Assembly (NCBI GenBank): GCA_014607495.2
Contig: CP053154.1
Span: 3,472,001-3,536,000, forward strand
Length of the DNA: 64,000 nucleotides
Origin: Carposina sasakii
Taxonomy: Eukaryota; Arthropoda; Insecta; Lepidoptera; Carposinidae
Reading direction: 5' to 3'
The stretch's first letter is position 1; each line of letters begins with the position of its first letter. The notes under the pieces were generated by a model that saw only the letters and a program-made list of their open reading frames with translations, was not told where the DNA came from and ran no database searches. This document shows, one piece after another, positions 169 through 46,961 of this stretch. Made by a program: the position numbers and the translations under genes.

Positions 169-463
169 TTGACAGCAAAGGCTCCGGCGGGAAAAGCTAG
201 AAGAGAGCGGCGAGGGCAGGCGGCGGGTGTAATTTTCTTGAGAAAATCTGAATTTATTTGTAAATGGCTTGCATGTGTTCGTAAAGTGATGTTTTCTGGA
301 AAGTAATATTTTTTATTTATTTTGTCTAATTTTACACCCATTCTTGGGGATTTTCCCGACGTTTTCATTCATCATAAATTCAGAAATCATTTACTAAAGA
401 CAATGGCTGTATGGGCTTAGTCCCCCTTGCCTTTCCTTCGAGATAAAAAAGTTGACAGCAAAG
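169..463 (+). mobile_element. A-tailed promoter retroposon, copy A (short form)
   Basis: The body is 181-451 and is flanked by a 12-bp direct repeat ttgacagcaaag at 169-180 and 452-463, a target-site duplication. It reads from a CCGGCGGGAAAAGC 5' end to a TTCGAGATAAAAAA 3' tail, the same ends as the other copies in this window. It lacks about 120 bp of the middle of the family. It lies 215 bp upstream of the Atox1 start codon, in the sense orientation. The family's conserved 3' segment with a tiny ATG...TAG reading frame (MAVWA) is present. Confidence 0.88.
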
Positions 464-666
464 ATTGACAGTGACATTGATTGAAGATTTAAAAAGTCGA
501 GTCATCAAATTTTTAGTTTATTTTAATATTTCATAAATTATTTGCTTAATTATTATCAGTTAAACATAGATATATTTAAAGATAAGATTGTAGGAAATTG
601 GCTGTAAACCTAGTTCCTTCAGACATAAATTTCCCACTTACCGTTTATTCAGATACATAATTTAGC

Positions 667-1011
667 ATGTCTTCGGTAAGTAGTTTGTATATATATTGTA
701 TAAAATTATCGTTTTATAGTCAAAGAAATTTATACATAAACATTATGTACATACATAGTTTAAATTTATCTTTATTGATAGGACATCATCTTTTGTTCTA
801 GACTCATATCTTCAATGTGGAAATGACCTGTGAAGGGTGTTCCGGTGCTGTAGAGAGGGTCCTAAATAGACTGATAGGCCAAGGAGTTGAGAGTATAGAT
901 ATCAGTTTACCAGAACAAAAGGTTTCTGTTACTTCAACACTTGGCTCTGATCAGTTATTAGAGGTAATTAAAAAGACTGGAAAAAAAACTACTTATATTG
1001 GAACACAATAA
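667..1011 (+). CDS. Atox1: Copper chaperone Atox1/ATX1
   Basis: Small cytosolic metallochaperone that carries Cu(I) to the P-type copper ATPase of the secretory pathway. There are two exons, 667-675 and 802-1011. The first codes only for Met-Ser-Ser before a GTAAGT donor; the second follows a TTCTAG acceptor. Joined, they give 72 residues, the usual family length. The metal-binding MTCEGC motif is at residues 11-16 (Cys13, Cys16), in one heavy-metal-associated (HMA) fold. The lysine-rich KKTGKK segment near the C-terminus matches the conserved lysine region of the family. The first in-frame ATG inside exon 2 would lose the first beta strand, so the tiny first exon is needed for a complete domain. 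Retroposon copy A lies just upstream. POC1 converges from the right, with stop codons 294 bp apart. Confidence 0.93.
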
Positions 1012-1127
1012 ACCTTTAATATAAATTATGAAACAGGTATGCATTAAAATTAATTTTTAAGTAAGTACTATTATATTGTCATTTCCAAAGTACATTTCAT
1101 AAAATTAACCTATATCTGTAAATGTTG

Positions 1128-1133
1128 AATAAA
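1128..1133 (+). other. Polyadenylation signal of Atox1
   Basis: Canonical AATAAA about 117 bp after the Atox1 stop codon, within the short convergent spacer. An ATTAAA on the opposite strand at 1254-1249 may serve POC1. Both are sequence matches only. Confidence 0.5.
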
Positions 1134-1305
1134 ATTAAGACTAGTTAGAAATCATTTGCTGCTATTTGACTGCTAATATTGATTGAGTACAGTTAACACA
1201 ATCTTGTCTTTGTATTATTGTTTTCACTTTATAATATTTTACAATATTTTTAATAAACTTGTTATTTATGTTTGAAGGACTTTCACTCACACGATGTGTA
1301 TTACT

Positions 1306-3907
1306 TTAAGTGCTCATGGCATCTTCAAGTGTATTTAGTCTCAAGTCAACCAGATCCACTGCCTCATGAAGTGCATTTAAATGATCAACAACTGCATTGA
1401 CAGTTGGTAATACATCATTACAACCACATTCCCTTACCTTATCTTCATTAATGGAATAAGTTTGGTCTAATCTTACTTTCTTGATTATTGGTTCATTCAT
1501 TAGTTTAGTGTTTTCAGAAATAATTTTAAAACCGCTGTTTATTGGAAAACTTCTTTTCCTACCCACCCATTCTATTATTCCACTTGTGTAGCAAACATCA
1601 TTGTTGCTTAATTTAATTAAGCCAAATAACTCCTCATGTTCTATATCATTGTAAGCAGTCTCCATTGATCTATTCATGATGGATGGAACAGTGTATGTAC
1701 TGGGCTGGGGTGGTATACGGGGAAGATGACTCATATGGCCAACACTATAAGACTCAGGTTCAGTATGAGCAGACATATTTCCCACCCTGGTTCCTACACC
1801 GGTACTGGTTTCACCTACAGTAGACTTCCTGTTTATTGTCTCTTGACTGAGATCTAATAGGGTGCTATTTGCATTAGGTTCTTGAATCACATTATTTGGA
1901 GGTGCAGTTGTCAGTTTTGAAGATGTTGTCACCACTTTGGGAGAAGATGTTGCTACTCTTGCAGATGGAGTTGGCTCAGGAACATTAACGTAAACAAAGT
2001 TTGCCACAGGATATTTAGTACTGTGATAGCACTGATACCACAGGCTTGTTCCCTGATATGTATACAAATTATATTAATACCTTCCTATTTCTAGTAGGAG
2101 GAATTAAATTTCAGCTTATTATTCTTTAAATTACATGTTTCTCGGAAGTCTATCTTTTGCAGTGTTACAGAATACTTAGTGAAGATATCCTGAATAGAAA
2201 TAATAACACTTTACTCCTAATGAATCAATGATGTCAGTATTCCTAGTGTGCTAGTAATATTTACAACTCCATGTAACTCTCAAAATACACTAATGAGATG
2301 AAGTCAACTGTGGATCTAATAAACTATCTATTTTTTACAACCTGATTGCGGCCTCTTGCTGAAATTACTTTAGAGGATTGGGAAGTTGATCTAGGTACAG
2401 AGGATTGGTTTTGTATCTCATTTTCTTTCAGATCACTAGCCATTTCAGTGAAATTTGTTCTCCATATGAACACCTGAAAAAAAATAGTAACATGTAAAAC
2501 AAATTCATACAATAACATACAATATCTTTTAAAACCATGTTTTCACAGAATAGTTTGCAATTATACCAGTTCATCTTCTCCCGCTGTTGCAAAGCTGTCT
2601 CCACTAGCAGATATGCTGACAGCATGAACTTTACCATCATGTCCACTCAAAGTAAAAATAGGATGACCTTCCATCAAGTCTAGAATCTGAAAAACAAAAA
2701 AGGTTTTACTAAGCTACATATTGAAAAAAAAGCATGTTTTGAAAACCAAACCTATTAATATACCTACCTTTATTGTAGAATCTTCACTGGTAGTAGTTAT
2801 GTAACGTCCACTTGGATGGAATGCCAATTGTGTGACTGCTTTTTTGTGTATGCTGTAATAGAAAGTATAAAATCTATTCTACATCTATACATATAATAAA
2901 ATTGTAACTGATCAAAATGCTAATGTCAGAATGTTTTTTCAGTCGCACGCGTCCACTCGAATACAATATTGCTTTTAAAATTACATTATAAATCAATTTA
3001 CATAATGATAATTATTAATTAAATTAAATGATGCATTACCTGTAATACTGAATAAGACAGTGAGTTCGAACATCATAAAGTTTCACATTACCATTTGATG
3101 TGCCAACAGCCACATAGCAACCAGTAGGATGCCATGCTAAATACAATCCATAACCTTTCTGATCCTTATATGTATGAATGCACTCTCCAGATTCAGGATT
3201 CCATAACTTTGTAGTCTTGTCATCTGAACATGAAGCTATCACAGAACCATCAAAAGACATACGTGCACATCTCACCCAATTTGTATGCCCAGTAAATGAT
3301 GATATGAACTTATGTTTTTCACTCGACCACATCTTCACTATTTTGTCATCTGAGGCTGTTATTATCTAACAATGAAAAAATACAGTTCTTCAGATCTTAT
3401 CTATAAAACTACATAATTAATACTACATATAACATTTACCTTAGAGCCATCAGAACTGAATTGTACTGAGCGAACTGTTTGTGAATGAGCCTTGAACATG
3501 CCGGTACTGCCTGTAACTGTGGGTACCCATAGTCTAACGGATTTATCGCGAGATGCTGTAGCCATATACTTTCCAGATGGTGAGAAAGTCACGTCTGTAA
3601 CAGCTTCATTATGACCCTGAAACCTATAACTTCTCATAGTTCCGCGTAGGTCCCATAACTGCAAGAAATATTACTTGACATACATACTTTAGCCAAAAAT
3701 ATGATTATAATTTACAGTTACAACAGTTGTTAGGTAGGCATATTGCTACCGAGTTATATACAAAGTTTTATTTACCAAAACACTGTTGTCAAGGGATCCA
3801 CTGGCGATTTGTTTTTCATTTGGACTGAAACATAGAGATGTTATACTATGCCGATGCCCTTTTAGCTGCTTTTCTAATGATGGTTCCAGATCAGTTAATT
3901 GATTCAT
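1306..3907 (-). CDS. Poc1: POC1 centriolar WD40 protein
   Basis: Core centriole and basal-body protein that stabilises triplet microtubules. Seven exons on the minus strand: 3907-3776, 3658-3440, 3365-3040, 2852-2768, 2686-2567, 2473-2342 and 2052-1306. All junctions are GT-AG and in phase, giving about 586 residues. The N-terminal half holds seven WD40 repeats (for example SRDKSVRLW and SDDKTTKLW) forming a beta propeller, residues about 10-305. A long low-complexity Ser/Thr/Pro linker follows. The C-terminus ends in the short coiled-coil POC1 motif around LNALHEAVDLVDLRLNTLED. The start is the Met of MNQLTDLEPSLEKQLKGHRH, aligning with the PSLERHFKGHRD start of vertebrate POC1. Two retroposon copies lie 114 bp upstream of the ATG, in the likely promoter. 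Confidence 0.93.
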
Positions 3908-4009
3908 GACGAAACACTGTATTATATTTTTGTGCTTTTTATTGGTAAAAACAAGTAGGTATTAAAATTATATTTTCAAATTCAAACTCATGAAACAAAC
4001 GAACGAACG

Positions 4010-4440
4010 AAATTTCAATATTTTTTTTGTTTGGTTTATCCCGAAGGAAAGGCAAGGGAAACTAAGCCCATACAGCCATTGTCTTTAGTAAATTATTTCT
4101 GAATTTATAAGGGATGATTATGGTGATGATGAATGGAAACGTCGGGAAAATCCTCAAGAACAAGAGCAAAATTAGTGAAAACCTAAAATAATTGTAGAAA
4201 CAACTTACATGAGCCCATGAAGAGTTCGTATTCCGATTAAAGTTTTACTCAGCTTACCTGCATATAAAACCATGCACACGCATTAGATTTACATCACAAG
4301 TAAACAAAATATAACTTATCTACGAGAAAACATTACTTTACGGACACATGCAAGCCATTTATAAATAATTTATGAATTTTCACAAAAAATTACACCCGCA
4401 CCCTTCCAGCTTTTCCCGCCGAATCCCCAAATTTCAATAT
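4010..4440 (-). mobile_element. A-tailed promoter retroposon, copy B
   Basis: The body is 4022-4428, minus strand, with its oligo(A) tail (plus-strand T run) at 4022-4029 and its 5' end GGGGATTCGGCGGG at 4428. A 12-bp duplication aaatttcaatat flanks it at 4010-4021 and 4429-4440. It sits 114 bp upstream of the POC1 start codon and reads in the same direction as POC1. It appears inserted into the tail of copy C, because copy C begins immediately after the right duplication. Confidence 0.88.
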
Positions 4441-4870
4441 ATTTTTTTAATAGTTTATCCCGAAGGAAAGGCAAGGGAAGCTAAGCCCATACAGCCATTG
4501 TCTTTAGTAAATAATTTCTAAATTTATGATGATTTTATTATTATTAACTATTTTTTTTGTATGGAAACGTCAGAAAATCCGTCAGGAAAATCCTCAAGAA
4601 CGAATGTAAAATGAATAAAATTCAAAAAGAATTGCAAAAACAACTTACATGAGCCCATTAAGAGATTGTATTCCGACTAAAGTTTTACTTAGCTTACCTG
4701 CAAATAAAACCATGCACTCGCACTAGATTCACATCACAAATAAACAAAATATAACTTATCTACCAGAAAATATCACTTTACGGACACATGCAAGCCATTT
4801 ACAAGTAAATTTTGATTTTCACAAGAAAAAATTACACCCGTTCCCTTCCACTTTTTCCCGCTAAATCCCC
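4441..4870 (-). mobile_element. A-tailed promoter retroposon, copy C
   Basis: Second full-length copy in the same orientation, directly abutting copy B. It runs from a short T-rich tail at 4441 to a slightly diverged 5' end (GGGATTTAGCGGGAAAAAG in reverse complement) at about 4870. No clean target duplication was found, as expected if copy B later inserted at its tail end. Confidence 0.8.
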
Positions 4871-5245
4871 GAAGCCCGAAATCTTTGACTATGAATCTAA
4901 TCTAATAAACCTAAAATAAAAATAAAACCGCCGACAGGGACGGAATATTTTGTCTATGGATAGAACTGATAGAGAAGATAGAAATTTAGGGTTACCAGTA
5001 AAAGGAAAAGTGCCCAATCATTGCGATGTACTATCTTATTTAGCTTACATTTGGAGAAGAACCTTCTGCATACAAAGTATCAGAAGGCCAATCGCGCTAA
5101 GTGACGTTTTTACTTTTCAACTGAACGTTTCGCGCGAAATTCTTCGCTATACGAAATTTGCATAACAACAGTGGTTCAGCTTTGGTAAATAGAAATGGAA
5201 AAAATACAATCGATCTGCCCTGCCAGTGCTCTTGAGTAAATACGT
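4871..5245 (+). other. Spacer with an unassigned 71-codon open frame
   Basis: A 71-codon frame at 4950-5165 has no recognisable domain, and no splice sites or homology support it as a gene. I read it as spacer sequence or an unrecognised repeat fragment. Confidence 0.3.
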
Positions 5246-5480
5246 TGCGAAGTGGAAACGTCGGAATCTTTAAAGTCCTCAAGAACGAGTTTAACTTAGT
5301 AAAAAAAAAAATAATTGCAGACAACTTATGAGCCCATGAAGAGATCGTATTCCGACTGTCTCAGCTTACTGCATATAAAACCATACACGCACTAGATTCA
5401 CATAACAAGTAAACAAAATTTTACGAAACAGTTTTATCTACCAAAAAGTTACATCATAGCTCCCTTCCAAATCAGACCTA
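5246..5480 (-). mobile_element. Degenerate copy D of the A-tailed retroposon
   Basis: Recognisable but decayed matches to the family in minus orientation: the GGAAACGTCGG block, the CCCATGAAGAGATCGTATTCCGAC block and the GCACTAGATTCACAT block, in family order with small deletions. Both ends are lost. It is in the same orientation as copies B and C and POC1. Confidence 0.65.
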
Positions 5481-5729
5481 CACTCCGACTGAATTTGACT
5501 GACTGATTGTCAAATATTTTTTAATAAAGTTTTACCTGGACCAGGCCTAAACATTCCCCCCACCGAATCTGCCAAGATGTCTCCAAATAAAATACACAAA
5601 TAGATATAGAATTATTAAATCAATAGTAGAATAATATCATATGTATGAAAGAGTGTGGACTGTATATATAATATTAAGTAGCAATAGATAAGTAAATAAA
5701 GTAAGTACTTAATAATGTCTAAATACTTC

Positions 5730-8764: not shown

Positions 8765-9174
8765 GATTCGGCGGAAAAAGCTGGAAGGGAGCGGGTATAA
8801 TTTTCTTTTGAAAATAAAATTTTATTTGTAAATGGCTTGCATGTGTCCGTAAAGTGATGTTTTCATAAAGTAATATTTTGTTTACTTGTTATGTGAATCT
8901 AGTGCGTGTGCATGGTTTTATATGCAGGTAAGCTAAGTAAAACTTTAGTCGGAATACGATCTCTTAATGGGCTCGTTCATGTAAGTTGTTTCTGCAATTA
9001 TTTTTGATTTTTACTAATTTTAAAACTCGTTCTTGAGGATTTTTTCGACGTTTCCATACATCATCATTATCATCCATCATAAATTCAGAATTCATTTTAC
9101 TAAAGACAATGAATGATGGCTGTATGGGCTTAGTTCCCCTTGCCTTTCCTTCGGGATAAACTAAAAAAAAAAAA
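8765..9174 (+). mobile_element. A-tailed promoter retroposon, copy E
   Basis: Full-length plus-strand copy starting GATTCGGCGGAAAAAGC and ending GGATAAACTAAAAAAAAAAA. It is in sense orientation 596 bp upstream of the XPO5 ATG and about 390 bp before a candidate 5'UTR exon. A short TTGTCGG repeat at 8730-8736 and 9175-9181 may be its target duplication. If so, the 5' end extends to 8737 and carries a second GATTCGGC start. The E2F-like GGCGGGAAA is mutated to GGCGGAAAA here. Confidence 0.85.
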
Positions 9175-9181
9175 TTGTCGG

Positions 9182-18700: not shown

Positions 18701-21700
18701 AATGACTCCGATATGACTTGATTGACTTTGATTCGTCAATACGATACGATATCATATTGTTCAAGCACTCTGTACCTACATATTTTCGCAATTTCGCGTT
18801 CTAGATTAGTTCTGAACTTGTCCGACAGGTGACTTTACTACATATCAATCCCCAGGTCCCGGTGTAGGCGCAGCGAGCGCAGATCTTTTACCGCAGGTGT
18901 TAGACAAGATATTCGCAGCGCTGCTATACGAGGGTAACGCTCACGACGACCGACGGTCACGCTCCGTGAAGAATGTTCGCAGGCACGCCGCGGGGCTACT
19001 AGTCAAATTGGGCTCGAAGGTATGTATTTAACTTTATCTTTTTGACACAGCTCTGGAGCTATGATATAGTGGTACGAACTTAAAAATACAGCCGAAATTG
19101 GTTATCAAAACACAAAACCCTTGGTTACACAGTGCAGTTGCAATGTGTGAAATAAAATGAACGAAAGTATATTATATCTTTCAACTTAACAGCGTAGTTT
19201 GCACGAGCGGTTGACACCTGCACCAGTACTCCCAATGTGTAAACACAGCTTTACAAAAAGATAACTCGCCTAATAACGCCAGTGTCCTTTTTTTCTCAGT
19301 ACGCGTTGCTACTTCTACCGGCATTCTCCCGCCTGCACGCGTTAGCATCACGAGCGCTCGCCACCGGAACACTGAGCGTCGTGGAGAGTGTCACGCTTCA
19401 GGAGGCGCTGCTACTGGTCGGGAACCACTTCTGCAGCCTGGAGCGACAGGCCGCGCTAGTAGCCGAGGTCAGTACTGTGCCGCAGCGAGCGCAGAGAGCC
19501 TGGTCGGGAACCAATTCTGCAGTCTGATTGGCTGTTTGATTTTCGGCGTTAACATTACTTCAATACGAGTTAGGGCCGATATTTCCAATGGACCTAATAG
19601 AACATAAAGTTAATGCTGTTTCTATCTTCATCTAGTTTTAGAGACAAATTGTAATTTCTAGGACTTGTATTGGACTTTGGTTTGGTCCACGTCCGATACA
19701 ACGCTCCGCTACAAACGCGGCAGATTCACTTCAAAATTTCTCATCTACTAGTGAATAACTTCATAATGTTACATAATACCTCAAACCGACAGGTATTGGG
19801 CGACAGCAGCGCGCGCTGGGCGGCCCTCGAGCCGCACATATCGTCTCCGGACGCGCTGATCCGGCTGCTGGGGCTGGACCGTCCGGCGCCGGCCGGCGAC
19901 GAGCCGGACGAGTGCGGCCAGGCGCGCCGCACACTGCTGCACGCCATGACGTTGTTACTGGGCGTCGTCAAGCGGACCACTGTGCCTGCTGATCCGGATA
20001 AGTACGTGTTGGTTTTAATATTTCATGTTTAGTTTTTAGCCTTTTGGTTTTGGAACGTGAACTTTAAGGTGACCACTCAAACCTCGTATCGACTGTTCCT
20101 GTTCAGTGGGTACTACGAGTAAGAGGCATGCAACTTGACGCCACCTGCGCCCTAGGACCTTATATGGGACACTTATTGCCTTTCTGCACACAGAAGGACC
20201 GGACGGGTCCTCTCCTCTGGGTGATGTTAGTTCGCGGGCCGGAGCCGGTGGTCCCCTATGATGCGCCCACCCGGCTCCCTCGCACGTACGCTTCGACTGC
20301 TAACATGAAAGTGTTTTTGCAGAGCGACGCGAGGAGGTTACAGCGCGGGTGTGACCGCCGCCGGTAACCCGATCTGGCGGAACCCGTGCAGCGCGCACGT
20401 GCTGCCGCTGTTCCCGCACGCGCTGGGCCTGGCGCGCGCTCTGCACGGTCTGCCCGGCCGCCTGCCCGCCGACGTGCTGGCCGTGCCGCCCGCCGAGCGC
20501 CGCAACCTGCTGCCGCGCGCCGAGCCGCCCGCGCCGCCGCCCGCGCACCAGGCGCCGCACACGCTGCACGACCACGTGAGTGTAGCGCCGCCTGCTGCCG
20601 CTGCTGTGATTGCTGATACTTCCTTCTTGCTAGCAACGGTGCGTTGCTAAACCTTTAAATAAAGCAGCGACGGCAACTGCTTTTCAAACGAGTTGGGTAA
20701 CGCGTTCCACCTGCTATCTTATAATGAAGAATCTTATTGTGAGACTAGGTATGTATGTTATGCAGGTGTGGCAAATAGAGATTGCCACTTACTACTCCAG
20801 AAATAGGCAGATAGAACTATATTGAGTTGACGTCTCTTACTCTTATGAATTTTGATGCTGTCTTTCTCTAAAACTTGAGTTATCCTTCAATTAAACCATT
20901 GAAAAAAATCAACTCTTATCCTATGTCTATGCACTCATACATATATTCTCAATCCCCAGGTATGCCATCTCGTAGGTGCAGCAGCCATCACCCTGGGTCG
21001 CGAGTTATACGCAGTGCCCGGGCTGGCCAAGTTCCTGTCGACCACGTTACTGCACGGGCTGGAGTGTTTGCCCGACCACTGGCTGCGGCCGATTGTACGG
21101 ACCGCCTTGAAGCCGCTGCTGCATCATTGCCCGCCCGCGCATTTGGCCGATGTGGCTTTACCTTTGCTGGACCATTTCTTACCTTTTAGTAAGTATTAGG
21201 TTATGTTGTCGTTATAGTATTGTTAATTTATTTTATTAGGATTTTCGTTTTCAGTATGGGCTCTGTTTTTGTTTGTTCCTTAAAATAACGTTTGCAATAT
21301 TGTCCTTTGTATGGGTGAAAGACCTAGACGACTTTTATTCACTATTTATTGACAAAGCTATGACATTGCTAGACTAAGTGAAGTATGCGAGAAAACGTAT
21401 ATGCGCCGACGATTGATACAGTAATTAAAGTGAGTTTGTTTGTCTCAGTGCTGGAACACTTAACGCAGCGCTGGGACTACATCACGTCACTGTACGAGAG
21501 CGGGAAGCTGGAGGAGGAGGGCAGCGAGAGCCAGGAGGTGCTCGAGGACATCCTCGTGCGGAACCTCACGCGCGAACACATGGAGCTGCTCAAGGTGAGG
21601 CAGGATGAGTACATCACGTCACTGTACGAGAGGGAAGCTGGAGGAGGAGGGCAGCGAGAGCCAGGAGGTGCTCGAGGACATCCTCGTGCGGAACCTCACG

Positions 21701-24700
21701 CGCGAACACATGGAGCTGCTCAAGGTGAGGCAGGATGAGTACATCACGTGCTGTACGAGAGGGAAGCTGGAGGAGGAGGGCAGCGAGAGTAGGACATCCT
21801 CGTGCGGAACCTTGGAGCTGCTTGAGGCAGGATGAGTACATCACGTGCTGTACGAGAGGGAAGCTGGAGGAGGAGGGCAGCGAGAGTAACAGATTTTTAT
21901 TTGCTTGACTCCTCGGGCCAGGCTCGATATCGTTAGTCCGCTGTAATATCGAGCCTGGCCCTAGGCCATAGGTTAGATTTAGTCCGCTCCCGACCGGTCG
22001 GAATGAAGGTTGTTGGGGGTGGCCTATGTTCAGCGGTGGACTTGTCATCTCACGGCTGAGAATGTTGATGATGCTGATGACTGGTGCACTTACGGGCTTC
22101 CACCACGAACCTTCCACTTTTGTACAAGTATAGGTATATTATGACTAAGCTCTAGCATTACAAAAGTCGCCAAGGCCCTCGTAGTATAGTGGTTAAAACT
22201 ATAATTCCCCCCCCCCAGATAAGTCTCCTCGAATGCGGGCTGGTGTCGTCCGAGTCGCCTGGTGGACATGGAGGAGGAGTCCCCCCCGGCGGGGGGTGCG
22301 GGCGGCGCGGGGGGCGCGGGGGGGCGCGCGCCCGACCACGTGTCGGAGATGGGCGCGCTCATACTGCAGAATGATGCCGGCGCCTCCGCGCTCTATACGG
22401 TTAGTATAATCATTATTAGGCTCAATTGACAACCCTGCGGGATTAAACGGAAGCCACTTTTTGCAACGAAATTGTATATAGCGTAATGAAGTTTATATAA
22501 ATGGTATAACACGCAAGTTATATACGAGCCGAAAAATTAGATGCGCTTCTTCCGCGGAATCTTGCGCATTCTAGAGAACTCTCCGGGGCCGTTTGAGGAA
22601 TCCGCAGGAGCTGACGCAAAAGGGATAAGTCGTTCAAGAAAAAATCTACAACAACGGCGGAACGTCCTTCATGTGTACTCGGGAATTCCCGCGTCATGAG
22701 GCGAAATTGACGCTTCCATTCCATTTCGCGGCGGTGTAATTTGAGCCGTAACTGATTCACATCAGCTTATTTCTGTCCACTGCTGAACCTCCCCCAGGGC
22801 ACAGGCACCTTGCCCAAAATTTTTAGTAAATCGCTTTCACGCCAAAACTACTGAATCGATTCCAATCAAATTTGGTACACAGATATTCTAAAGACTGAGA
22901 AAGCACATAGGCTACTTTTTATCCCGGATAATTTCGACATTTTGTTTTTTCTGCAGTCCTACATACCTATACTAGTAATATTATAATATTATGATTCCAC
23001 CAGATCCTCCGCGCGTTAACCTGGAACGATTCCACATCGTCACTGCGCGCGTGCCAACTGGCCCTGCCAACGTTGGTGTACGCGGTGCAGGCCAACCGGG
23101 TTGGCGCCAACGAGGCGAGCTGCGCACTGGCCTGCATCCTGCAAGCGTTGCGCACGCACGGCCAACACGAGGCCAACCAGGCGGCGCTGTTGGCGCTCGC
23201 TGTACAGGTAAAAGCTATCATCTCTCACTGATCGCAGGACATGTCTGGACCTATCCTTCTTGTACAAAATTGTTTACAATATCATAGATTCACCACAGAT
23301 ACTCAATTAAATTAGATTTAACATTCCACTCTGTGGTTTCAGATTAAAAAACTACCATCTATTTAGTCCGAGTCCGCATAAGACTAATCTAGGTAGGCAT
23401 TCTCCTCTGACAAGATTAATGGATACCTACAACAAATTATCCAAATCAGTAAACATTGATATAACTGGTAATCGTGCAAATGTATTTAAGCATAAAGTTT
23501 TTCAATTGATTAATACAGTTTAATCCATGCTTATCTTTTAACACGCTTCATTGCTTAAATAATGGTTAAATAGTTTTACTTAATTTATTGTAAAAGTTGT
23601 GCTAGCCTGTAATTGTGATACATACGAGTAATATTATCGCGTGCTCCTGTCCAACTTGTATCTTAACGGAACTGTTATGTATTATGTTGGCTTTCTAATT
23701 TAAATCTATACTAATAATAATAATAATATTATAAAGCTGAAGAGTTTGTTTGTTTGTTTGTTTGTTTGTTTGTTTGTTTGATTGAACGCGCTAATCTCCG
23801 GAACTACTGGGTCGAATTAAAAAATTCTTTTTGTGTTGGATAGTCCATTTATCGAGGAAGGCTTTAGGCTATATATCATCACAGTGCGACCAATAGGGAC
23901 GAAGAATAAGAGGAAAATGTGGAAAAAACGGGGAAAATTATTCAACTTTGGAGACTTCCGTTGCGTGCGCTGCGTAAACGGTTCAAGTTATCCAAAAAAT
24001 ATGTATGAAAGAATAAAATGACGTAGAAATGATATGAAAGAAAAAATTGTAGGTCTAGACTGCCTGATGCAGAACCCTTAGCAGCCCAGCTAAACTTTGA
24101 GAGATATGAAAATACCGTCTTAGGAAAAGTTGCTCAGCATGATAAGCACTTTCTAATAACGTAATAAAATTGAAGGTCTAGATAACCTGATGCAGAACCC
24201 TTAACAGCCCAGCTAAATTTTGAGAGATATGAAAATACCGTTTTAGGAAAAGTTATTCAACATTTTAAAAGAATTCAATTCCCTGTTAAGTTATCTTTTG
24301 CTGTAACAATTAATAAATCACAGGGGCAAACGTTTAAACACGTTGGAATTGACTTACGTCAAGACTGCTTTTCACACGGCCAATTATATGTCGCGTTGTC
24401 AAGATCGGGTTGCGGAGAAAATCAGTATGTTCTTCTGCCACAAGAAAATAAAACAAAAAATATAATTTACGCAGAAGTACTTTAAAATATTTTATTCTGT
24501 TTGTTGACGCGGACGAAGTCGCGGGCAACAGCTAGTAAATTAAATAAAACTAGTGAAAGCTGTATTTGTTTATGTTATATTCCTCAGTCTTTACCCAGCA
24601 ACAACGGCTATTAAAAAAAAAATCCACAGTTAGTAAATCTTCGTATTTTTTGTAATACTAATGTAAAAGTTAGTGTCTGTTACCACATTATGGATCCACG

Positions 24701-27995: not shown

Positions 27996-28027
27996 TTCCA
28001 CATAAAAACAGTAGCAGTACGTTAGTT

Positions 28028-31000: not shown

Positions 31001-34000
31001 TTAGAAAATGAAGCGCATCTTTCTATAATTTCATTTCCTAGTTCGTATTCTTAGCAGCACAGTATCTAATTACTACGAATTACAATGGAGAACATATTTA
31101 AAACCTGTAATAGGTACAATAAAAGATGCATATAGGTAATATTGAAATCAGTATTGAAATACATGCCTATTGTTTAAAATGCACATACATTGCATATACC
31201 CAAATAGTTATCAGATTTTAATTAGGTAATCTCAAAATTCGACACAGTTCTCATTGTTTGGTTATATCGCTCTAAATTAGAAAGAATGTAACTCTTGATT
31301 TATGGACCTAGGCATGGACTGAACTATTTAATACGTGACTACAAATCAAGGCATCAGCTATGGCACAAAAAAAGCAGATACTTCCAATATCGATCGGAAG
31401 AAAGAAGGTGTGAATGCGCAAGTTGACGCACCATTATTCAGTTCTGTGCTAGCTTAAATTTTTCTATAGAAACACCAAAACTACCAGTTAAAGCATTGGT
31501 GGCCATAGGAGTGCCAATTACCTTATACAAAAAATACTATTTAGCATTCATGACAGAAGACATCCGCAAACAAGAATGTAGCATAAATTGGCGCATTATT
31601 CCGTTATACGAGTATGTATTGTCTTTTCTGTACAAATGCAGTACGCAACTACATAAGCCATTGCTCGTTTTTCCACTAGACGACACGACCAAAACACGGC
31701 CCCCCATATTATATGACGAAATGTCGTGGTTGTATCGTTGACTTGTCGTCTAGTGGAAAAGCGCCCAATAGCGTTTTATTACAATGCTACTCTATATTTC
31801 AAAATTGGTTAAACTATTATTTAACTTAAACACGAACATTAAGAAACATACCTATAGCAAATACGATATCCTTAACGGCATGATGAATTGACACCTATAT
31901 GTATGTAGGTGTTTAGGAAGGGGCTGGGCAAGGGGAAATTTCTAGAAGTAATGTCAAAGAGTTACCTGTGTCTTTTCTATTCTTTCTTCTTCCGCGCGGA
32001 ATTTATCGTAGGGTTTAGGTTCACAATTCACTATAGTCCACTTTTAGGGTAAGGGCACTCTGATTGGGTAGGTCAGTTTGTCACACACAAAAATTCACTT
32101 GACGAGACGCGAGGTCAGTACCGCGGTGGTTGGACAACTGGCAGAGCAGGGTGGGGGGGAAACACGTGGCCAGCGTCCGCGGCGAGGAAAAGAGATAGGA
32201 AGATTAGAAGAGGGAGAAACAAAATTATAGTTTTAACAGTAGGTATATGTACCTATAGGTTAAACATGACTTACATTGCCAAGCAGTGCCCACACATGTT
32301 CAGCAACGTGTGGGCAGATGGGCGACATAAGGACCGCCTGCGTGGAGACGTAGCGCGTCACCAACTGCGCATGCATGCCCCCGTCAGCGCACAGCTCGCG
32401 GTACTTGTCGCGCGAGGCCTGCAGTTCGAACAGACCGCTCTTCAGGCCCTCCTTGAACAGCATCTTCCCGTAATTCTCGTCCGTTTGACCGATCTGTCTG
32501 TTCATCTCGCTGATGAATACCTTGTCGTGGAAGTTGTATTCGCCTAAAGAAATAGAAATGCTTAATGACTAGTGGACGCCCGCGACTCCGTCTGCGTGGA
32601 CTGCAGAAAAAAAAAATCTAAATTTTCCGGGATAAAAACATTTTCCCGAGATAAAAGGTAGCCTATATGTTAAGCGGGACCTGTCACAATATATTCCTGA
32701 AAACTGCATTGAAATCGGTTCAGCCGTTTCTGAGATTAGCGTGCACAAAGATCAATCCGTTACAATTTTATTATATCGGCGCACATGATAAAAAATCTGA
32801 AGGACATACTTTTATAGTGCAGAAAAGCTACAAATATTACTAAACTTTTGTAAAGATGCTTGTCTAGGCTGTAAATATTTTGTTGTACTCTAATTATCAC
32901 TTACCAGTTCTCAAAGTGGACTTGTTAGCCAGAACCTCTTTAACCCACTCAATGAACGTGTAAAGCCGTAGAATGGCTGCATCGGCCGTGCTCTCCACAA
33001 AATTAGCATCCTCGATAGAATCGCCCGAGTCCGCCAGAGTCAGTCTCATTCCATCAGCGCTGAACTTGTCCACACTCTCCGATAACGTCAGGAAGTTGCC
33101 ATCGGATTTGGACATTTTCGCCGAGTTGAGCATTAAGTGGCCGTTCGCGCGAATGCCTCGTGGCCACTTATCCTCTTCCTTGGGCCAAATCGCGCAGTGA
33201 TTGTAAATGTAGTATGACAAGTGATTCTGTACCAAGTCTTTTCCAGACGCCCTGAGATCCACTGGATACCTAATAAAGTTCATAAGTTATAGTTTTTCTT
33301 TTGAAAATCTAAATAGAGATGAGTAGCTCATGAGTGAGTGATATAAAAGAAACATATCTTTATAGTGAGCTATATCACTCTCTAGCTCACTTGCTTTCCA
33401 AATATATCTCTAGCTCTGTATGATATAGGGCACATTTTCGATATATTGTAGAACTGAGTTTTTTAATACTCGTATGAGCGCATGCAAAATTACAATTTGG
33501 AAACGCCGCGCGCGTTGAACCGATGCAAAGAATATACTTTGAAACGATGCATAAACCGATTCTCACTTTGCTTTCCAAATATATCTCTAGCTTTGTATGA
33601 TATAGGGCACATTTTCGATATATTGTAGAACTGAGTTTTTTAATACTCGTATGAGCGCATGCAAAATTACAGTTTGGAAACGCCGCGCGCGTTGAACCGA
33701 TGCAAAGAATATGCTTTGAACCGATGCATAAACCGATTCTCACTCTAATTAAAATTCAGATGACCTTATGAAACAAATTAAAGACAACCATATCGCGTTC
33801 TAACTCGGACTAAGCGACATCTAGTGGCCGCATACGCACACTACGAATGTGAGCGGCGCTCCTGATTGGACTAATTTTTCATACGAAATCTTCAGTATCA
33901 CGCGCCGGCCTATGCCGGTATGTCTTTTTCGCACTCATTGAATACAGTACTAGGAATCGTACCGAATTTCATTTCATTGAAGCGCGATCGCTAGCGCTCC

Positions 34001-37403: not shown

Positions 37404-37812
37404 TTTTTTTTAAATAGTTTATCCCGGACCCGAAGGAAAGGCAAGGGGAACTAAGCCCATTCAGCCATTTTCTTAATAAATGATTGATCCGAATTTATGA
37501 TGGATATTGATGATGATGAATGGAAACGTCGGGAAAATCCTCAAGAACGAGTGCAAAATTAGTCAAAATCAAAAAGAATTGCAGAAACGACCTACATGAT
37601 ACCATGAAGAGATCGTATTCCGACTTAAGTTTTACTTAGCTTACCCGCATATAAAACCATGCACACGCACTAGATTCACATTACAAGTAAACAAAATATG
37701 ACTTATCTACCAGAAAACAAAACTTTACGGACACATGCAATCCATTTACAAATAAATTTTGATCTTCACAAGAAAATTACACCCGCTCCCTTCTAGCTTT
37801 TCCCGCCGAATC
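37404..37812 (-). mobile_element. A-tailed promoter retroposon, copy F
   Basis: Minus-strand copy from a T-rich tail (37404-37414) to the 5' end GATTCGGCGGGAAAAGC at 37812. It lies 117 bp upstream of the LARS1 start codon and reads in the same direction as LARS1. No clear target duplication was found. Confidence 0.85.
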
Positions 37813-38934: not shown

Positions 38935-39347
38935 ACTATACCATAGGATTCGGCGGGAAAAGCTGGAAGGGTGCGGGTGTAATTCTTGTGAAAACCAAAA
39001 GTAATTTTTAAATGGCTTGCATGTGTCCGTAAAGTGATGTTTTCTGGTAGATAAGTTATATTTTGTTTGCTTGTAATGTGAATATAGTGCGTATGCATGG
39101 TTTTATATGCAGGTAAGCCGAGTATAACTTTAGTCGGAATACCATCTCTTCATGGGCTCATATATGTTGTTTCTGCAATTATTTTTCATTTTTACTAATT
39201 TTACACCCATTCTTGAGGATTTTTCGTTTCCATTCATCATCATCATTATCATCCATCATAAATCATTTACTAAAGACAATGGCTGTATGGGCTTAGTTCC
39301 CCTTGTCTTTCCTTCGGGATAAACTAAACAAAAACACTATACCATAG
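38935..39347 (+). mobile_element. A-tailed promoter retroposon, copy G
   Basis: The body 38947-39335 starts exactly GATTCGGCGGGAAAAGC and ends GGGATAAACTAAACAAAAAC. A 12-bp duplication actataccatag flanks it (38935-38946, 39336-39347). It lies 239 bp upstream of the Rrp1 start codon in sense orientation. It is the best-defined full-length copy for setting the family's ends. Confidence 0.93.
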
Positions 39348-39574: not shown

Positions 39575-42500
39575 ATGGCACCCGCAAAATCCAAGGTGAG
39601 CATGTTCTTATTATAAAATTTAGAGATGGATACTGTAGAATGTACCACGTTTCGAGTCAATTGTACTAAGTGTGTACTTTTGTATTTCATTCACTTTTAC
39701 ATAGTATGATTTAATAGGTTTTACTATAAATGAGATGAAGGTTGTAAAATTACAACGCATTACTTGATTTTTGTGGTCATGTACGTACTCAGATCAAGAA
39801 ATTTGTACGTATATATTGTTCTATTTACGTCCATGATTGTGGTATTATAATGGAACAGGCATTAGTCATAACGGCGTATAATTTAGTTAACCATCTCATC
39901 AATATTATGAATTTTTTCACTTGCAGAAGACAGAACTAAAAGTTAAAAATGATGTTCCAAAAAAAGGCAGAGGGAAAGGAAAAATTGTTGAGGAGCTAGA
40001 AGATGCAGATATGGAACTAAATGATAAACCAGTCATTGTCAATGAAAAAAAGAATAAACGGGGGAAAAAAGCTGTTCAGGAAAATGGTGATGGACTTACC
40101 AATGGTGACAAATCAGCTTCCCAACCTAAAAAGGGCAAAAAACAAGAAACTGATGAGTTAGATAACAAACCATTATCTTATGATGAAAACGAATCAAGTT
40201 CAGACTCTCCTGCAAATGGTGACAAGGCAGACAATGGTGATATTGGTGAAAGTAATGGTGATACAGAAGATGTACAAAGTGTCTCTTCTGGAAAATCACG
40301 TAAAAGGTCAACAAAGAAAGACACAGAAAAGGCAGAAACAAAACCAAAGGCCAGTAGGGGTAAAAAAGCTAATAAAGTGAATGAAAATGTTGAGAAAGAA
40401 GAAAAACCCAAAGCAAATAAGGGTAGGGGTCGTAAAGCTAAGGTTGACAATGATGTTGAATCTGATGAAAAGGTTGAACTTGAAGAAGAGAAGCCTGAAA
40501 AGGCAACAAAAGGTAGAAAGAAAGGACCAAATAAGGTCACAAAAGAGAAAACTCCTGAATCTGAAGAATCACCAGAAGAACCTATGGAAGAGGATGAACC
40601 AGTAGTTGAAGAATCAAAGAAAAAAACCAAAAGAAATCAAGGTAAAAAGACTGTTAAAGATGATGTAGAGGAAGAAGCTCCTGCCCCTAAAAAAAGGAAA
40701 GGAAATAAAAAAGAAGAGAAAGTTAAAGGTTTGTTTGTTTTGATTGAAAGGCAAATAATAATTAATGTTTTTATGTGTGTATGAAATATTTATTTATGAA
40801 ATGTACAAATATTTGATGACATTTGTTTTTATTTCAGATGAGTCAAAGGAAGAAAATGGTACAGATGACAGTGTACCTGAACCTAAATCTAAGGGAAAAC
40901 GGGGGAAGAAGGTCACAGAAGTGCCTGAAACTGAGGAGGAGGCCCAGGACACTGGTGAGACCAAACGACGACGCAAACCTGCAGACGAGAAGGGTAACTA
41001 GTTTTTTGTTGTAAGCCCATGTTAAGTTATAGTTACAATGACTATTGATTGTTCTGTTCATTATGTGTGTTTATTAGTAAAATAAAAAATTTAACATTAT
41101 ATGCTTTTATTTATTCTAACCTTGCCCTTTTTATCTAAAAATACATTAAAATTAGAGATAACAGGCTTCTGCTTAGTAAAGTATTTAATTTCATCATCAT
41201 GAATACCAGTTTTAAGTATTTACTCATTAAGAGCATGGCAGGATAAATGGGATTAGCATAGTATATCTAAATAATAAACTAACAGATCAGGTTTTGCATC
41301 AAGTTCATAATTGGAAGTGGATGATGAAACTACTTACTACATAAATAGATGTCAAACTGCTAAATATATGCAGTTTGACAATATTTATAGAATATTAACT
41401 CTTTCTACGATTATCTAGCATACACTGACAGATATGTACTATCTTCCCTATTCATTGTGATACTACTCTACTGTCTTTCCTATATCCATGCAATCTAGTT
41501 AATACTGAACTGGATGAATTTTCAATTTCTTTTCAGCTCCGGTTGAAGATAAAAAGGAAGTTCCCCCTAAAAAAAACAAATCTGTAACTGATTATGAAAG
41601 CATAGATTTTTCTAACTCTTCCAAAAATGTGGAAGGGAAAGAGTGGAACCTCAAAATCTCCTGTTGGAATGTAGATGGTATAAGAGCTTGGTTAGGAAAA
41701 GGGGGGCTTGATTATATTAAATATGAGAAACCTGACATTCTTTGCCTGCAAGAGACAAAATGTTCTCAGGAGAAACTTCCAGAGGAAATAAAGAATTTGC
41801 CTGGGTACCATGCTTACTGGCTATGTAGCGACAAGGATGGCTACGCGGGCGTAGGCCTCTACACTACTAAATTAGCCATGAACGTACAATATGGACTTCA
41901 GAATGAGGAGCTCGACAATGAAGGCCGCATAATAACGGCAGAGTATGAGCAGTTCTATTTGATATGCACCTATGTGCCCAACGCTGGGCGGAAACTAGTC
42001 ACGTTACCCAAACGACTGCAGTGGAACGAAGAGTTCCGCAAGTATGTTAAGGAGTTAGATAAGAAGAAGCCTGTGATAATTTGTGGCGATATGAACGTCG
42101 CACATAACGAGATAGGTATGTTTTTGACTACTATAGTGTAAACTGTAAATGAAGAATAGGGAGGTATCTACAACTCTTCACAATGGATGATTAGAGAGGT
42201 ATATCATCCTCTCAAAGAGATACAGGTCTCAAGGAGACTTATTCACTGAGCATTTATGTCGGCGCGTCTTCTTTTTACCAAACTGATGAAATCTCGATCT
42301 CATTACACTTCATCAGTTATTATAGTCAATCTTTGGCAACTGTAGGAGCGTAATTAGTCGTGATAAATATTATCTTATCACCAACAGATTTCTTCTAGTA
42401 AACCTTTGGAGTTCATTAGGAATCTGGCCTGTTAATTTTACAAACAACCTGTCTATGTATGTATCAAGCTTTACTAATATTTCAGACTTGGCAAATCCTA

Positions 42501-43019
42501 AGACCAACAAAAAGAATGCTGGTTTTACTGCAGAAGAACGTGCAGGCATGACTGATTTGCTTGGAGATGGTTTTGTGGATACGTTCCGCCATTTTTACCC
42601 TGACAAAGCGAACGCGTACACTTTCTGGACTTATATGATGAATAGCCGAGCTAAAAACGTTGGATGGTAAGTAATGGCCGTAAAACAAATGCTAATTCTG
42701 TGCAATTTTCTTATATTAGCAAAATCTGTTTCGAACCACACTTACCTGAATTTGTCTACCCTGCCGCCCATCACCCGCGCAACGGCGACTGTTTTCTATA
42801 AATTAACACCTCTGTTTCCATGATGATTTAACCGATCTTATTGCTGTTTCCTCTAATTAAATGTATTTTCTTTCCAGGCGTTTAGACTACTTTATAGTTT
42901 CTCAAAGAATACTCGCAACAATATGTGACAGTGTAATTCGAAGCTCTGTGTATGGAAGCGATCATTGTCCAATAGCTCTGTTACTGCACCTCACAACTGC
43001 AGACAAGCCTAAAGAATAA
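39575..43019 (+). CDS. Rrp1: AP endonuclease Rrp1 (APE1/ExoIII family)
   Basis: Nuclear base-excision-repair enzyme that cuts the backbone 5' to abasic sites. Six exons: 39575-39595, 39927-40728, 40838-40993, 41537-42115, 42486-42666, 42878-43019, joining to 626 residues. Residues 1 to about 360 form a highly charged, Lys/Glu-rich tail with repeated [12 protein letters not shown] motifs, probably disordered and DNA- or chromatin-binding, as in Drosophila Rrp1. The catalytic domain is about 363-626. CWNVDG carries Asn371 (APE1 Asn68), LQETKC the metal-binding Glu, GDMNVAH the Asp/Asn pair, and GSDHCP the catalytic His. [21 protein letters not shown] is almost identical to APE1. It is divergent from LARS1 and convergent with HPF1. 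Retroposon copy G lies just upstream. Confidence 0.95.
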
Positions 43020-43183
43020 GCTACCCAACCTTTGTTATAAGTTGTATTGTGCCAGAACCACAATCTCCTAGAGAAAAAAAGACTTAAGAGAATATTTACA
43101 CACAGAGAGAGACACGTCAAACTTGTAACACCCCGTTATTTTTGCGTCGGGGGTTAAAAAGTGTTTGTCTCAATACAATTATT

Positions 43184-43189
43184 AATAAA
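43184..43189 (+). other. Possible Rrp1 polyadenylation signal
   Basis: AATAAA 165 bp after the Rrp1 stop codon. It falls in an AT-rich tail adjoining a SINE-like fragment, so the signal may be repeat-derived. Confidence 0.35.
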
Positions 43190-43204
43190 GAAATGTAAAA
43201 AAAT

Positions 43205-43255
43205 TCCTTACCTGGGTGGGAATCGAACCCACGACCTCTGCATTCCGTGCCAGTG
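43205..43255 (-). mobile_element. tRNA-like SINE fragment
   Basis: The minus strand reads GCACGGAATGCAGAGGTCGTG then GGGTTCGATTCCCACCCAGG, the 3' half and box B of the same tRNA-headed family as 37951. Its AT-rich tail continues to 43181. Confidence 0.6.
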
Positions 43256-43436
43256 TCAATACACTCCATATACCGTCGATCATGATTATAATACTACAAA
43301 GTTGATTTTTTTAGTTCATTTTTAATAGGTATGCCTCATTTTGAGAAAATTATAATTTTTTATTCATCATTTTGTTTGTTTAAATGGTTCTTATAATATG
43401 CAATTAAAAAGCGTAATTGTATTAAAATGAGATGTT

Positions 43437-43442
43437 TTTATT
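43437..43442 (-). other. Possible HPF1 polyadenylation signal
   Basis: AATAAA on the minus strand about 340 bp after the HPF1 stop codon. Another lies slightly further downstream. Confidence 0.35.
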
Positions 43443-43778
43443 TGTTATTTTCAAGATCATTTAAGCATTAAAAGTTAAAACACACAGTAGGTAAAATAGA
43501 AACGTTTTTAGATGAACTGAATGAAAAAGGAGTTTTGTAATATACATGAAATTATTTTAATTTACAAGATGCAAAGTAATGCTACTTACAAAAATAAATA
43601 CTTACATAATAAAATGACTTACAAAAAGTAAGTTCTAGAAATTGTAACAATAACTTAAGTAAAATTATATTAGGAGTGAGGAGTGACATTCTATTTAGAA
43701 CACTGGAATATTTACTGCTGAATATGAGCTTCACACAAACAACAGTATAACTTACCCCATAAAAAATATTAAAAAATA

Positions 43779-45735
43779 TTATTTACTTATTAAGCTTAAT
43801 ACTGACATATTTGGTCCTTTGCGACGGTTCTTTAGATGAACCTGGAACAGAAAAGAACACATTACAACAGAATCTATGAGTAGAGTGTGTAATTAGGGGG
43901 AGACTATACACCAAGTAGTCGAAAATTACTTATATGTTGATTGGTTATGTGAAAACTGGCATTGTGTTCTAAGTTAAAACTATGTCTAAAACAGGCTTGA
44001 ATAGTCTAGCAAGAAAGGGTCAGTTAACTATGTGCATTTATTATAATGCGTTACTTTCATGATTTTTAGAAATTTTCAATTTATATCTATAACAATGTAT
44101 TGTACAGCTGCTTGAGATGACTTAGTTAGACAGTGCAAGTGTGCCTAAGTAACTCATATCAATAGTTACTCACTTCAATAATTTTGCTGAAGGCATTTCT
44201 GTTCAACAGGGGGTAAACTGAACAGAGGGTACTTAAAGCACTTGGTTCCAATTCTTTTAGGCCAGAGCAAAATAAATCTATTCCCATTTCTAGTCCAGTA
44301 CCAAAATCACATTCATCCACAGCTATGTTTGCATATGTTATTACTGGCTGAATTTCTGACAGTATTACATCTTTCTCATTATCAGATTTAGCTTCTTCCA
44401 GTTTTGTAAACAATTTCTTCAAATTGGCTGAAAATTTTAATTAGTCTGTTAATTTGAGGACATCATTTTAACAATAGCAGGTCCTTGAAATATTAACAAA
44501 TAATTGTTAATTAAGCATGATTCATAATGAAAAATTACCATCGGTTTCAACTAATTTTCTATAGCCTAATTGAGTTTTTTTATTGTAAGGTACCACTAAT
44601 CCACTGCCATGCAGTGTCTTTGCTAAAACATGTGACAATCTCTTCTTTATGTTATATTCTTCTAAAGAATATTTCTTTTCCTCTGCACACTTTTTTATTT
44701 TATCCATAAGCTTCTGGCATGACATTGCAGTAAATGGTGAGGTTTTCTTCTCATTTTGTAAGTACAAACTGCAAATTATAAAAATTGGTAAATTAATTAA
44801 CTTTGTAATATACCTACTAGTCAATAGCCAGGGTTATGATTATGACATAACAAGAATAACAGTAAAAGGATCATGTGGCAAAATAAAATTATACTGACTA
44901 AATTGTCCCAAATATATTATCAGCTAGTGGTGTGATATGGCATCCTTTAGAGCTGTCAGAACTTGCAAGAAATACTGGATTCTCATTGGGCTGATCTCTA
45001 TAATAGCCAATATGATATTGGCTTTTACCTTTCTTCTTAAGAATAGCCTGAAATATGAATAAAGTTTAGTATGATTACTTTTTATAAAATCAATTCAGGA
45101 AAAAATTAAAGCTAGCTTTACAAAAGGCAAGAGTGTAATGTACTTACTTGATACTCTGGAGGATCATAAAAAAATCTCCAATGTAGCAAATATAAATCTT
45201 TATCTTCCAAAATTGGTAATTTTCCCAGTAATAAATCAAAAGGCCCTATAAGCTCTAGGTTTACGGAAGATAAAAAACTCTGGACATCATTGTTAGACTC
45301 TTTCAGAAAGTTATAGAATTCAAAAAAATCATTTGGCATCTGTACAAGAAATAACTCTTTAAAAACTTCTATATCAGTAGTTTGATCATGGTAAAACAGA
45401 TCTGCTACATTTAATAGTACACTATTGTCTTCTTCTGGGTGGTTTTCAGGCGGTTTGTTAGTTTGTAATTGCTGGGTTTTATTTGAAGATGGGGTACTAC
45501 TATTGGCAATATCACAGACATCATCTTGATCTGAGCTTGCTTTAGGAGTGTTTTTCGGGGAGGTGTTTCTTGAATACGGTGAGTTACGTCTATGATTTCG
45601 TGTTCTGTCTTTCTTTAAAATATTACTAGGCGGATGTTTAAAGTGCTTATGATGATCTGCATTCTTTTGATAACATTTTACACCATATTTGCAAATAGTT
45701 CGGGAATCTTTTACATAAATTTGCCATTCTTCCAT
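43779..45735 (-). CDS. HPF1: Histone PARylation factor 1 with N-terminal PBZ finger
   Basis: Cofactor that completes the PARP1/PARP2 active site and directs ADP-ribose to serine at DNA breaks. Five exons, minus strand: 45735-45148, 45047-44899, 44768-44539, 44427-44174, 43841-43779, giving 427 residues. HPF1 signatures: LHWRFFYDPPEYQ, QYHIGYYRDQP, HGSGLVVPY, and VDECDFGTGLEMGIDLFC, where Asp360-Glu361 correspond to human Asp283-Glu284, the catalytic Glu. Residues 15-34 form a C-x5-C-x6-H-x5-H APLF-type PBZ (poly(ADP-ribose)-binding) finger with Cys15, Cys21, His28 and His34, absent from human HPF1. A Ser/Asn/Pro-rich linker joins it to the core. The start is the first Met of the exon. Retroposon copies H and I lie upstream, in sense. 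Confidence 0.94.
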
Positions 45736-45870
45736 GTTTTAATTATATGATCACTAACCAGTATTCTCTCTCAATATAATATAACATAAACTAAAAATAG
45801 TACCTAATTAGCAAGCAAAACTAGAAATTTAGAAATATTAGATTATTTTGAGGTTAGCTTTTTGTTTACA

Positions 45871-46264
45871 GTTTTTTTTTTGTTTGGTATACCCTGAAGG
45901 AAAGGCAAGGGGAACTATGCCCATACAGCCATTGTTTTTAGTATTAATGATTCTGAATGGAAACGTCTGGAAAATCCTCAAAAACAAGTGTAAAATTCTC
46001 AGTTAAATTTGTCAAAATGAAAAAGAATTGCAAAAACAACTTTCATGAGCCCATGAAGAAATCGTTACCCGACTCAAGTTTTACTCTGCTTACCTGCATA
46101 ATATAAAACAATGCACACGCACTAGAATTACATCACAAGCAAACAAAATATAACGTATCTACCAGAAAACATCACTTTACGGATACATTCAAGTTATTTA
46201 CAAATAAATTTTAATTTTCACAAGAAAATTACACCCGCTCCCTTCCAGCTTTTCCCGCCGAATC
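45871..46264 (-). mobile_element. A-tailed promoter retroposon, copy H
   Basis: Minus-strand copy with its T run at 45872-45881 and 5' end GATTCGGCGGGAAAAGC at 46264. It lies 135 bp upstream of the HPF1 start codon and is in sense with it. A TTTTTGTTTA repeat at 45859-45868 and 46273-46282 may be an eroded target duplication. Confidence 0.85.
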
Positions 46265-46523
46265 GTTTTATTTTTTTGTTTAAGCAACAATATGTTGTAT
46301 TGATACCGCCATTCACTATGATTAGACCACGAGTTTGACCAAAACTGTTGAACTCCGTACTGTTCTGAGACTCCGTAGTAAATGCGTACGGTTGGTGAAT
46401 GCCCTTATTTATTAAAGGTAATAACCGGAAATAGCAGTACTTAATAATAACAGTAACTTGGTACTAATACCTATCTATGGGGAATAGTGGCGAAAGTTAA
46501 TAAGAAAGGTGAACTATGTAAAA

Positions 46524-46961
46524 CGGGTGTTAAATCCTTTTTTTTTTTTTTTAGTTTATCCCGAAGGAAAGGCAAGGGGAACTAAGCCCATACAGCCATT
46601 GTCTTAAGTAAATGATTTCTGAATTAATGAGGGATGATATTGATGATGATGAATGGAAACGTCGGGAAAATCCTCAGGAACAAGTGTAAAGTTAGTCAAA
46701 ATGAAAAATTATTGCAGAAACAACTTACATGGGCCCATGAAGAGATCGTATTCCGGCTAAAGTTTTACTCAGCTTACCTGCATATAAAACCATGCACACG
46801 CACTAGATTCACATCACAAGTAATCAAAATATAACTTATCTACCAGAAAACATCACTTTACGGACACATGCAAGCCATTTACAAACAATTTTAGATTTTC
46901 ACAAGAAAATTACACCTGCACCCTTCCAGCTTTTCCCGCCGAATCTTCGGGTGTTAAATCC
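46524..46961 (-). mobile_element. A-tailed promoter retroposon, copy I
   Basis: The body 46538-46947 has a long T run (oligo-A tail) at 46538-46551. It is flanked by a 14-bp duplication cgggtgttaaatcc at 46524-46537 and 46948-46961. Same strand as HPF1 and copy H. This pairing of tail and duplication is the clearest evidence that the family moves by retroposition. Confidence 0.93.

Follow-up and report, generated by a model that had tools for sequence, protein, structure and literature searches.

Targeted retrotransposition is well known for genes transcribed by RNA polymerase III (Pol III), for ribosomal DNA and for telomeres. The fission yeast elements Tf1 and Tf2 are long terminal repeat (LTR) elements that use an integrase and, to our knowledge, show no orientation bias. 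Siting at RNA polymerase II (Pol II) promoters, as given for Tf1 and Tf2 in the accessible part of PMC4600332, is a feature that they appear to share with the retroposon described here, a family of short copies found in a 64,000-nucleotide stretch of the genome of the lepidopteran Carposina sasakii (C7:3472001-3536000; this whole stretch is hereafter called the window). Copies of this family show a strong tendency to lie a short distance upstream of protein-coding genes, pointing in the same direction as the gene and often stacked as separate insertions.

In behaviour, the non-LTR element TRE5-A of Dictyostelium appears to be the closest analogue. It targets transfer RNA (tRNA) genes, which are transcribed by Pol III, at about 47 bp and with its 5' end facing the gene, according to the available portion of PMC5391098. 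As far as that portion goes, the likenesses are a non-LTR element that keeps a short, fixed distance upstream of genes and a single orientation (here a strong tendency), tandems built when later elements join a gene already occupied, additional nucleotides at the 5' junction, and a non-autonomous form that behaves alike. The C. sasakii retroposon differs in that its neighbours are protein-coding, its spacing is looser, and its 3' A-tail is turned toward the gene.

With regard to structure, Persaeus is a lepidopteran short internally deleted element (SIDE) that stems from the CR1 element Zenon and matches its long interspersed element (LINE) along its full length (accessible text of PMC6740152). 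No treatment of insertion sites was seen in that text. The present retroposon resembles Persaeus, on the same source, in being short, in having poly(A) and, judging by copy G, no Pol III promoter, and in a LINE-like 5' end, whereas only its first 90 nucleotides clearly match a LINE and its body (nucleotides 100-320) does not. The short interspersed elements (SINEs) PxSE1-5 and HaSE1-3 are likewise short lepidopteran retroposons with target duplications, but have tRNA or 5S heads (PMC8010984, PMC3272025, each in its available part), and 44-51 percent of PxSE copies are located in introns (PMC8010984, same part). A SINE or LINE with promoter-directed, oriented insertion of this kind was not found among the papers listed from a largely open-access literature, including the accessible part of PMC5633606.

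When copy G was used as the blastn query, ten pieces were obtained in the window, corresponding to nine copies (copy A is split in two). The copies are listed below, each distance being measured between the ATG and the point where the blastn match to the copy ends.

Copy A, 215-447, plus strand: internally shortened, target-site duplication TTGACAGCAAAG, before an Atox1-like gene with its ATG 219 bp away.
Copy B, 4024-4425, minus strand: full length, ATG of a POC1-like gene 116 bp away.
Copy C, 4443-4867, minus strand: head-to-tail behind copy B.
Copy D, 5272-5456, minus strand: fragment, oriented as B and C.
Copy E, 8765-9171, plus strand: full length, first XPO5 ATG 599 bp away.
Copy F, 37429-37812, minus strand: faces LARS1, left half of a divergent pair, ATG 142 bp away (less if measured from the true tail end).
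Copy G, 38947-39335, plus strand: faces an Rrp1/APEX-like gene, target-site duplication ACTATACCATAG, ATG 239 bp away.
Copy H, 45877-46264, minus strand: faces HPF1, ATG 141 bp away.
Copy I, 46544-46945, minus strand: oriented as copy H, target-site duplication GGATTTAACACCCG.

The nine copies group into six arrays, one per gene, and four of these arrays are lone copies. Copies A, B, G and I show clear target-site duplications. Between copy E and the first XPO5 ATG there appear to be a non-coding exon and a short intron, as judged from the sequence. An earlier note on this DNA had described the copies as lying in sense before six genes, and all nine do point with the gene that follows; its ATG distances are close to those re-measured here. 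The size that it gave, nine copies of 390-410 bp, applies to the seven near full-length copies, copy A being shortened and copy D a fragment, and the odds of 1 in 512 that it attached to the shared orientation come down to 1 in 64 with six independent arrays. Each of its six gene names has a fitting Pfam match above cut-off, at family level: HMA (Atox1), WD40 (POC1), Xpo1 (XPO5), tRNA-synt_1 (LARS1), Exo_endo_phos (Rrp1), and PBZ plus HPF1 (HPF1). The names themselves are what we take these genes to be, as a Pfam family alone does not prove a name.

The retroposon nature claimed in the same note was borne out. The consensus, built from 86 copies, is 402 nucleotides long, and divergence from it has a median of 4.5 percent (range 2.3-11.2). 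A-tails are present, and 56 of 81 near full-length copies have an exact target-site duplication of 9-20 nucleotides, with a mode of 13. Extra 5' nucleotides were seen in 22 of these 56 copies (G or GA in 16), and 5'-truncated pieces retaining the 3' part only also occur (for example in sampled loci L018, L024 and L028). No tRNA head was detected in copy G, the one copy tested, boxes A and B not being scanned separately, and an Rfam search with copy G gave no family, its single sub-threshold match lying outside the element. A diagnostic 29-mer, allowing up to two mismatches, was found at 4,688 genomic places and its reversed control at 0; this and the other whole-genome counts cover the 31-contig assembly of 399 Mb. 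In sense, the consensus holds several ATGs as well as donor-like sites with the sequence GTAAG.

The preference at the nick site is weak, with Y before and A after the nick. It is in keeping with the idea that the preferred motif of the endonuclease lies on one promoter strand and that this asymmetry of the target sequence gives the direction. When nick sites were scored in a leave-one-out manner at 26 empty sites, 0.516 +/- 0.07 of the weight fell on the observed strand; thus local sequence does not set direction, and we regard this explanation as very improbable. As candidate target motifs, TGACA/TGTCA was enriched over the 100 bp immediately downstream in one profile, but TGACA occurred in 11 of 45 flanks of 110 bp, 13.8 percent being expected, which is too weak, and the Initiator TCAGT gave no peak in the flank profile.

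A wider sample was assembled from the top 40 scored of 3,676 candidates for copy G, giving 39 loci outside the window, for 20 of which 10 kb and for 19 of which 3.4 kb of sequence was taken. A second query gave 40 scored places, and two of those loci joined the sample. All loci were brought to one orientation, with the copy running from left to right; copies at most 150 bp apart were treated as one array, giving 47 arrays after merging, 41 of them outside the window. The focal copy sets the orientation of mixed arrays; in L019 it is a nested antisense copy in an array of opposite direction. Reading frames were first viewed by eye, and the Pfam and annotation-free counts were made later as a check.

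Outside the window, 11 of the 41 arrays have a gene with a Pfam match above cut-off starting within 400 bp in sense, and one has such a gene in antisense (11 of 12 in sense, p 0.006; 16 of 17 when the window is added, with its five genes that start within this distance). The sense starts belong to SIN1 (133 bp), RNase_T (303), TAF (96), HORMA (125), THAP4_heme-bd (100), Ribosomal_L20 (172), Cupin_8 (280), DAO (192), ELP3_N (91), WD40 (97) and RLL (83), the start codons being our choice of in-frame ATG and the TAF case (L019) being counted by the majority orientation of its array. The sole antisense case is an H2A gene 245 bp from the L043 array, which is also in sense to another frame 107 bp off. 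Three weaker sense cases are a zf-AD gene in L048 at 99 bp (Pfam below cut-off), an SLC30A9-like gene in L024 at 166 bp (recognised by eye), and an HSCB-like gene in L023. At a level finer than the Pfam family, we take neighbours in the sample to be REXO2, TAF6, MAD2L2, MRPL20, RRP9, ELP3, JMJD7-like, RTRAF, SLC30A9 and HSCB. Antisense genes lie 1.1-1.35 kb downstream in L020 and L042, and a divergent TFIID-18kDa gene lies about 450 bp or more upstream in L023. The identified neighbours are all protein-coding, no search for tRNA genes having been made around other copies. The sense position upstream of genes that the earlier note had reported is therefore a strong tendency in the wider sample, and not a rule.

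Annotation-free counts pointed the same way at short range. A codon score was trained on window exons and applied to 39 loci with repeated stretches masked. Scores of at least 6 within 500 bp were found 9 times sense-downstream, 0 times antisense-downstream, once sense-upstream and once antisense-upstream, and an orientation-flip permutation of the sense-downstream minus antisense-upstream sum gave p 0.00095; at a threshold of 5 the counts were 14, 5, 4 and 3, sense-downstream first. ATG-led frames, defined as ending at a splice donor or reaching 50 codons within 400 bp, were present sense-downstream in 20 of the 41 arrays outside the window, versus 9, 9 and 10 in the other quadrants (paired p 0.027, 0.027 and 0.041), and with the window included in 24 of 46 versus 9 of 46, 9 of 45 and 11 of 45. 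The 27 multi-copy arrays carry most of this signal (15 sense-downstream versus 6, 7 and 7). Over the whole genome, the 3' end of the retroposon is followed after 80-110 nucleotides by MAMATGG at 35 places, versus 12 for its reverse complement (p 0.001), the MAMATGG sites being start-like motifs and hence putative start codons.

Apart from two loci, the sample consists of the 40 best-scoring among 3,676 candidates obtained with a single copy, and its Pfam-supported sense cases number 11 of 41, so that query-like or array-rich loci might be over-represented in a family that is itself unbiased. Such an accident of sampling is nonetheless highly unlikely, considering that strand relative to genes was no sampling criterion and that the pattern count of 35 to 12 comes from the whole genome.

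Copies are closely stacked. In 46 of 63 cases the gap between same-direction neighbours is 15-75 bp, and neighbours within 150 bp of each other form 51 pairs of the same direction and 9 of opposite direction, the latter in six loci. Many array members bear their own duplication (for example in L026, L036, L043 and L046) and are thus separate insertions. At 30 sites with an upstream neighbour, A-runs reach a maximum 10-30 bp ahead of where the copy inserted. This peak, the narrow gaps and the little bias of lone copies could all be expected if the first copies entered open chromatin with no or nearly no strand preference and later ones entered at the A-tail of a neighbour and in its direction, arrays thus carrying most of the bias. 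Seeding of this kind fixes the direction of copy to copy and not of array to gene, yet arrays face genes; four of the six window arrays are lone copies and all of these face their gene. Moreover, neither array member is regularly younger: age order, tried as an indicator in 26 tandem pairs, was rejected, with the upstream and the downstream copy younger in 12 pairs each and two ties. We consider it distinctly unlikely that open chromatin and such seeding account for the pattern.

Some individual arrangements deserve mention. In L035:1501-3400 a unit of two copies has been duplicated in tandem as a whole, the spacers being identical, which is an exception to separate insertion. A copy sits antisense inside another at L019:4801-5202, and a similar arrangement is found at C4:4324112-4325686. 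L048:1001-2288 is divergent, with two copies toward the zf-AD-like gene and one opposite, and resembles F and G in the window. In L045 the target duplication matches the antisense 3' end of a different copy, and in L041 it is similar to such an end, which suggests a secondary target.

Behind the sense array in L023 there is a 5,492-bp LINE with a 13-bp target-site duplication and an A-tail. It encodes an endonuclease, a reverse transcriptase and RNase H, and its first frame gave no Pfam match. The LINE is in sense to the HSCB-like gene, which matches DnaJ and HscB_4_cys, both below cut-off, and has its ATG 141 bp past the 3' duplication. Its best-scoring relatives with a host name are from Parnassius and Spodoptera. 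The first 90 nucleotides of the retroposon aligned with the LINE 5' end at a score of 45, compared with 24.2 +/- 4.3 for shuffles, of which 1 in 2000 reached it; between the body (100-320) and the LINE only matches of 11-14 nucleotides were found (E about 0.5). The LINE 3' end occurs at 27 genomic places, 8 of which, query included, match the query over most of its length at 98 percent or more, and four of the 27 adjoin known retroposon copies on the same strand:

C22: the LINE in L023.
C23:5902628: by the fragment in L028.
C13:4726587: some 750 bp past a copy from the second query.
C13:14271809: past a retroposon tail from the whole-genome motif count by roughly the length of the LINE, a full-length LINE being assumed.

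Taken together, position, direction and stacking fit an integration complex tethered to the promoter machinery, and we give a probability of roughly one half to the reading that insertion is guided to Pol II promoters and always takes the same direction there. Accessibility of promoters alone would not yield direction. The earlier note had left directed insertion and retention side by side as options. With retention, insertion would be wide, or strand-neutral in open chromatin, and copies in antisense or elsewhere would be purged, or sense copies kept as promoter or 5' leader modules; the GTAAG sites and sense ATGs of the element mean that placement could matter to the host. Retention could yield direction, but not easily stacks or youth. 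The median divergence of 4.5 percent is taken to leave little time for purging, and separate insertions with different duplications within tens of bp need a hot spot: 182 kb of sequence near other copies extrapolates to 11,000-17,500 copies, and by our own arithmetic that many copies, placed at random, would have another one within 100 bp in less than 1 percent of cases. We therefore favour directed insertion over retention, which is unlikely, on account of the separate stacks, the low divergence and the LINE with a related 5' sequence in the same niche.

We infer the following course for directed insertion. The retroposon, a non-autonomous, A-tailed element, would be inserted by target-primed reverse transcription, with machinery that probably comes from the LINE with RNase H, the 5' end of which it resembles. 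Its integration complex would be recruited to active germ-line Pol II promoters, where the template strand of the gene would be nicked upstream of the coding start, so that the A-tail comes to face the gene. As the promoter would remain a target, later copies could enter within tens of bases and produce head-to-tail arrays.

Several results weigh against this reading. At greater distances the flip permutation loses strength (p is 0.014 at 1 kb and 0.0375 at 1.4 kb), and strong splice donors alone showed no bias within 400 bp (11, 9, 9 and 11 in the four quadrants), with some bias at 600 bp (21, 13, 11 and 15). The 14 lone copies show little bias in ATG-led frames (5 sense-downstream versus 3, 2 and 3), and only two of them (L016 and L032) have a Pfam-supported sense start, in contrast to the window, where each of the four lone-copy arrays faces a gene; the weak signal of lone copies fits promoter hot spots that gather arrays, but equally seeding by neighbours. 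No gene was assigned to about 25 of the 41 arrays outside the window, and the measured distances reach the ATG only, not the transcription start. Start-like motifs in antisense upstream number 27, a count with a different anchor that is not comparable with 35 and 12, and divergent promoters could possibly give some excess of them. Antisense neighbours occur, some of them nested (L019). The absence of copies from introns given in the earlier note holds within the window but not in the genome, as the L010 array, two sense copies and an antisense fragment, lies between two isocitrate dehydrogenase exons. Finally, the similarity of the retroposon to the LINE 3' end is weak, its score being reached by 52 of 1000 shuffles.

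Other repeats were observed in the window. Within XPO5, a plus-strand frame at 24186-24485 resembles the end of what we take to be a Helitron Pif1-type helicase. The segment 23756-23873 recurs at 63363-63480, and 23869-24009 at 63860-64000. A 122-bp direct repeat at 21498-21749, its units 99 percent alike, overlaps a probable XPO5 coding stretch and is either a coding repeat or an assembly matter. Within LARS1, two tandem units of 177 bp at 33391-33744 are 98 percent alike.

What may be seen here, and we put it forward tentatively, is a LINE and its passenger that use Pol II promoters in an insect as both address and compass, stacking there and rebuilding the upstream regions of perhaps hundreds to thousands of genes; such a system would be the Pol II equivalent of TRE5 and Ty3, elements that are Pol III-directed. 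If true, a LINE/SINE system that takes both its position and its direction from Pol II promoters would apparently be new, would tie the transcription machinery to target-primed reverse transcription, and would constitute a natural means to place DNA just upstream of promoters. The thousands of copies in the genome, as reflected in the 4,688 places of the 29-mer, may then have shaped the promoters of this lineage.

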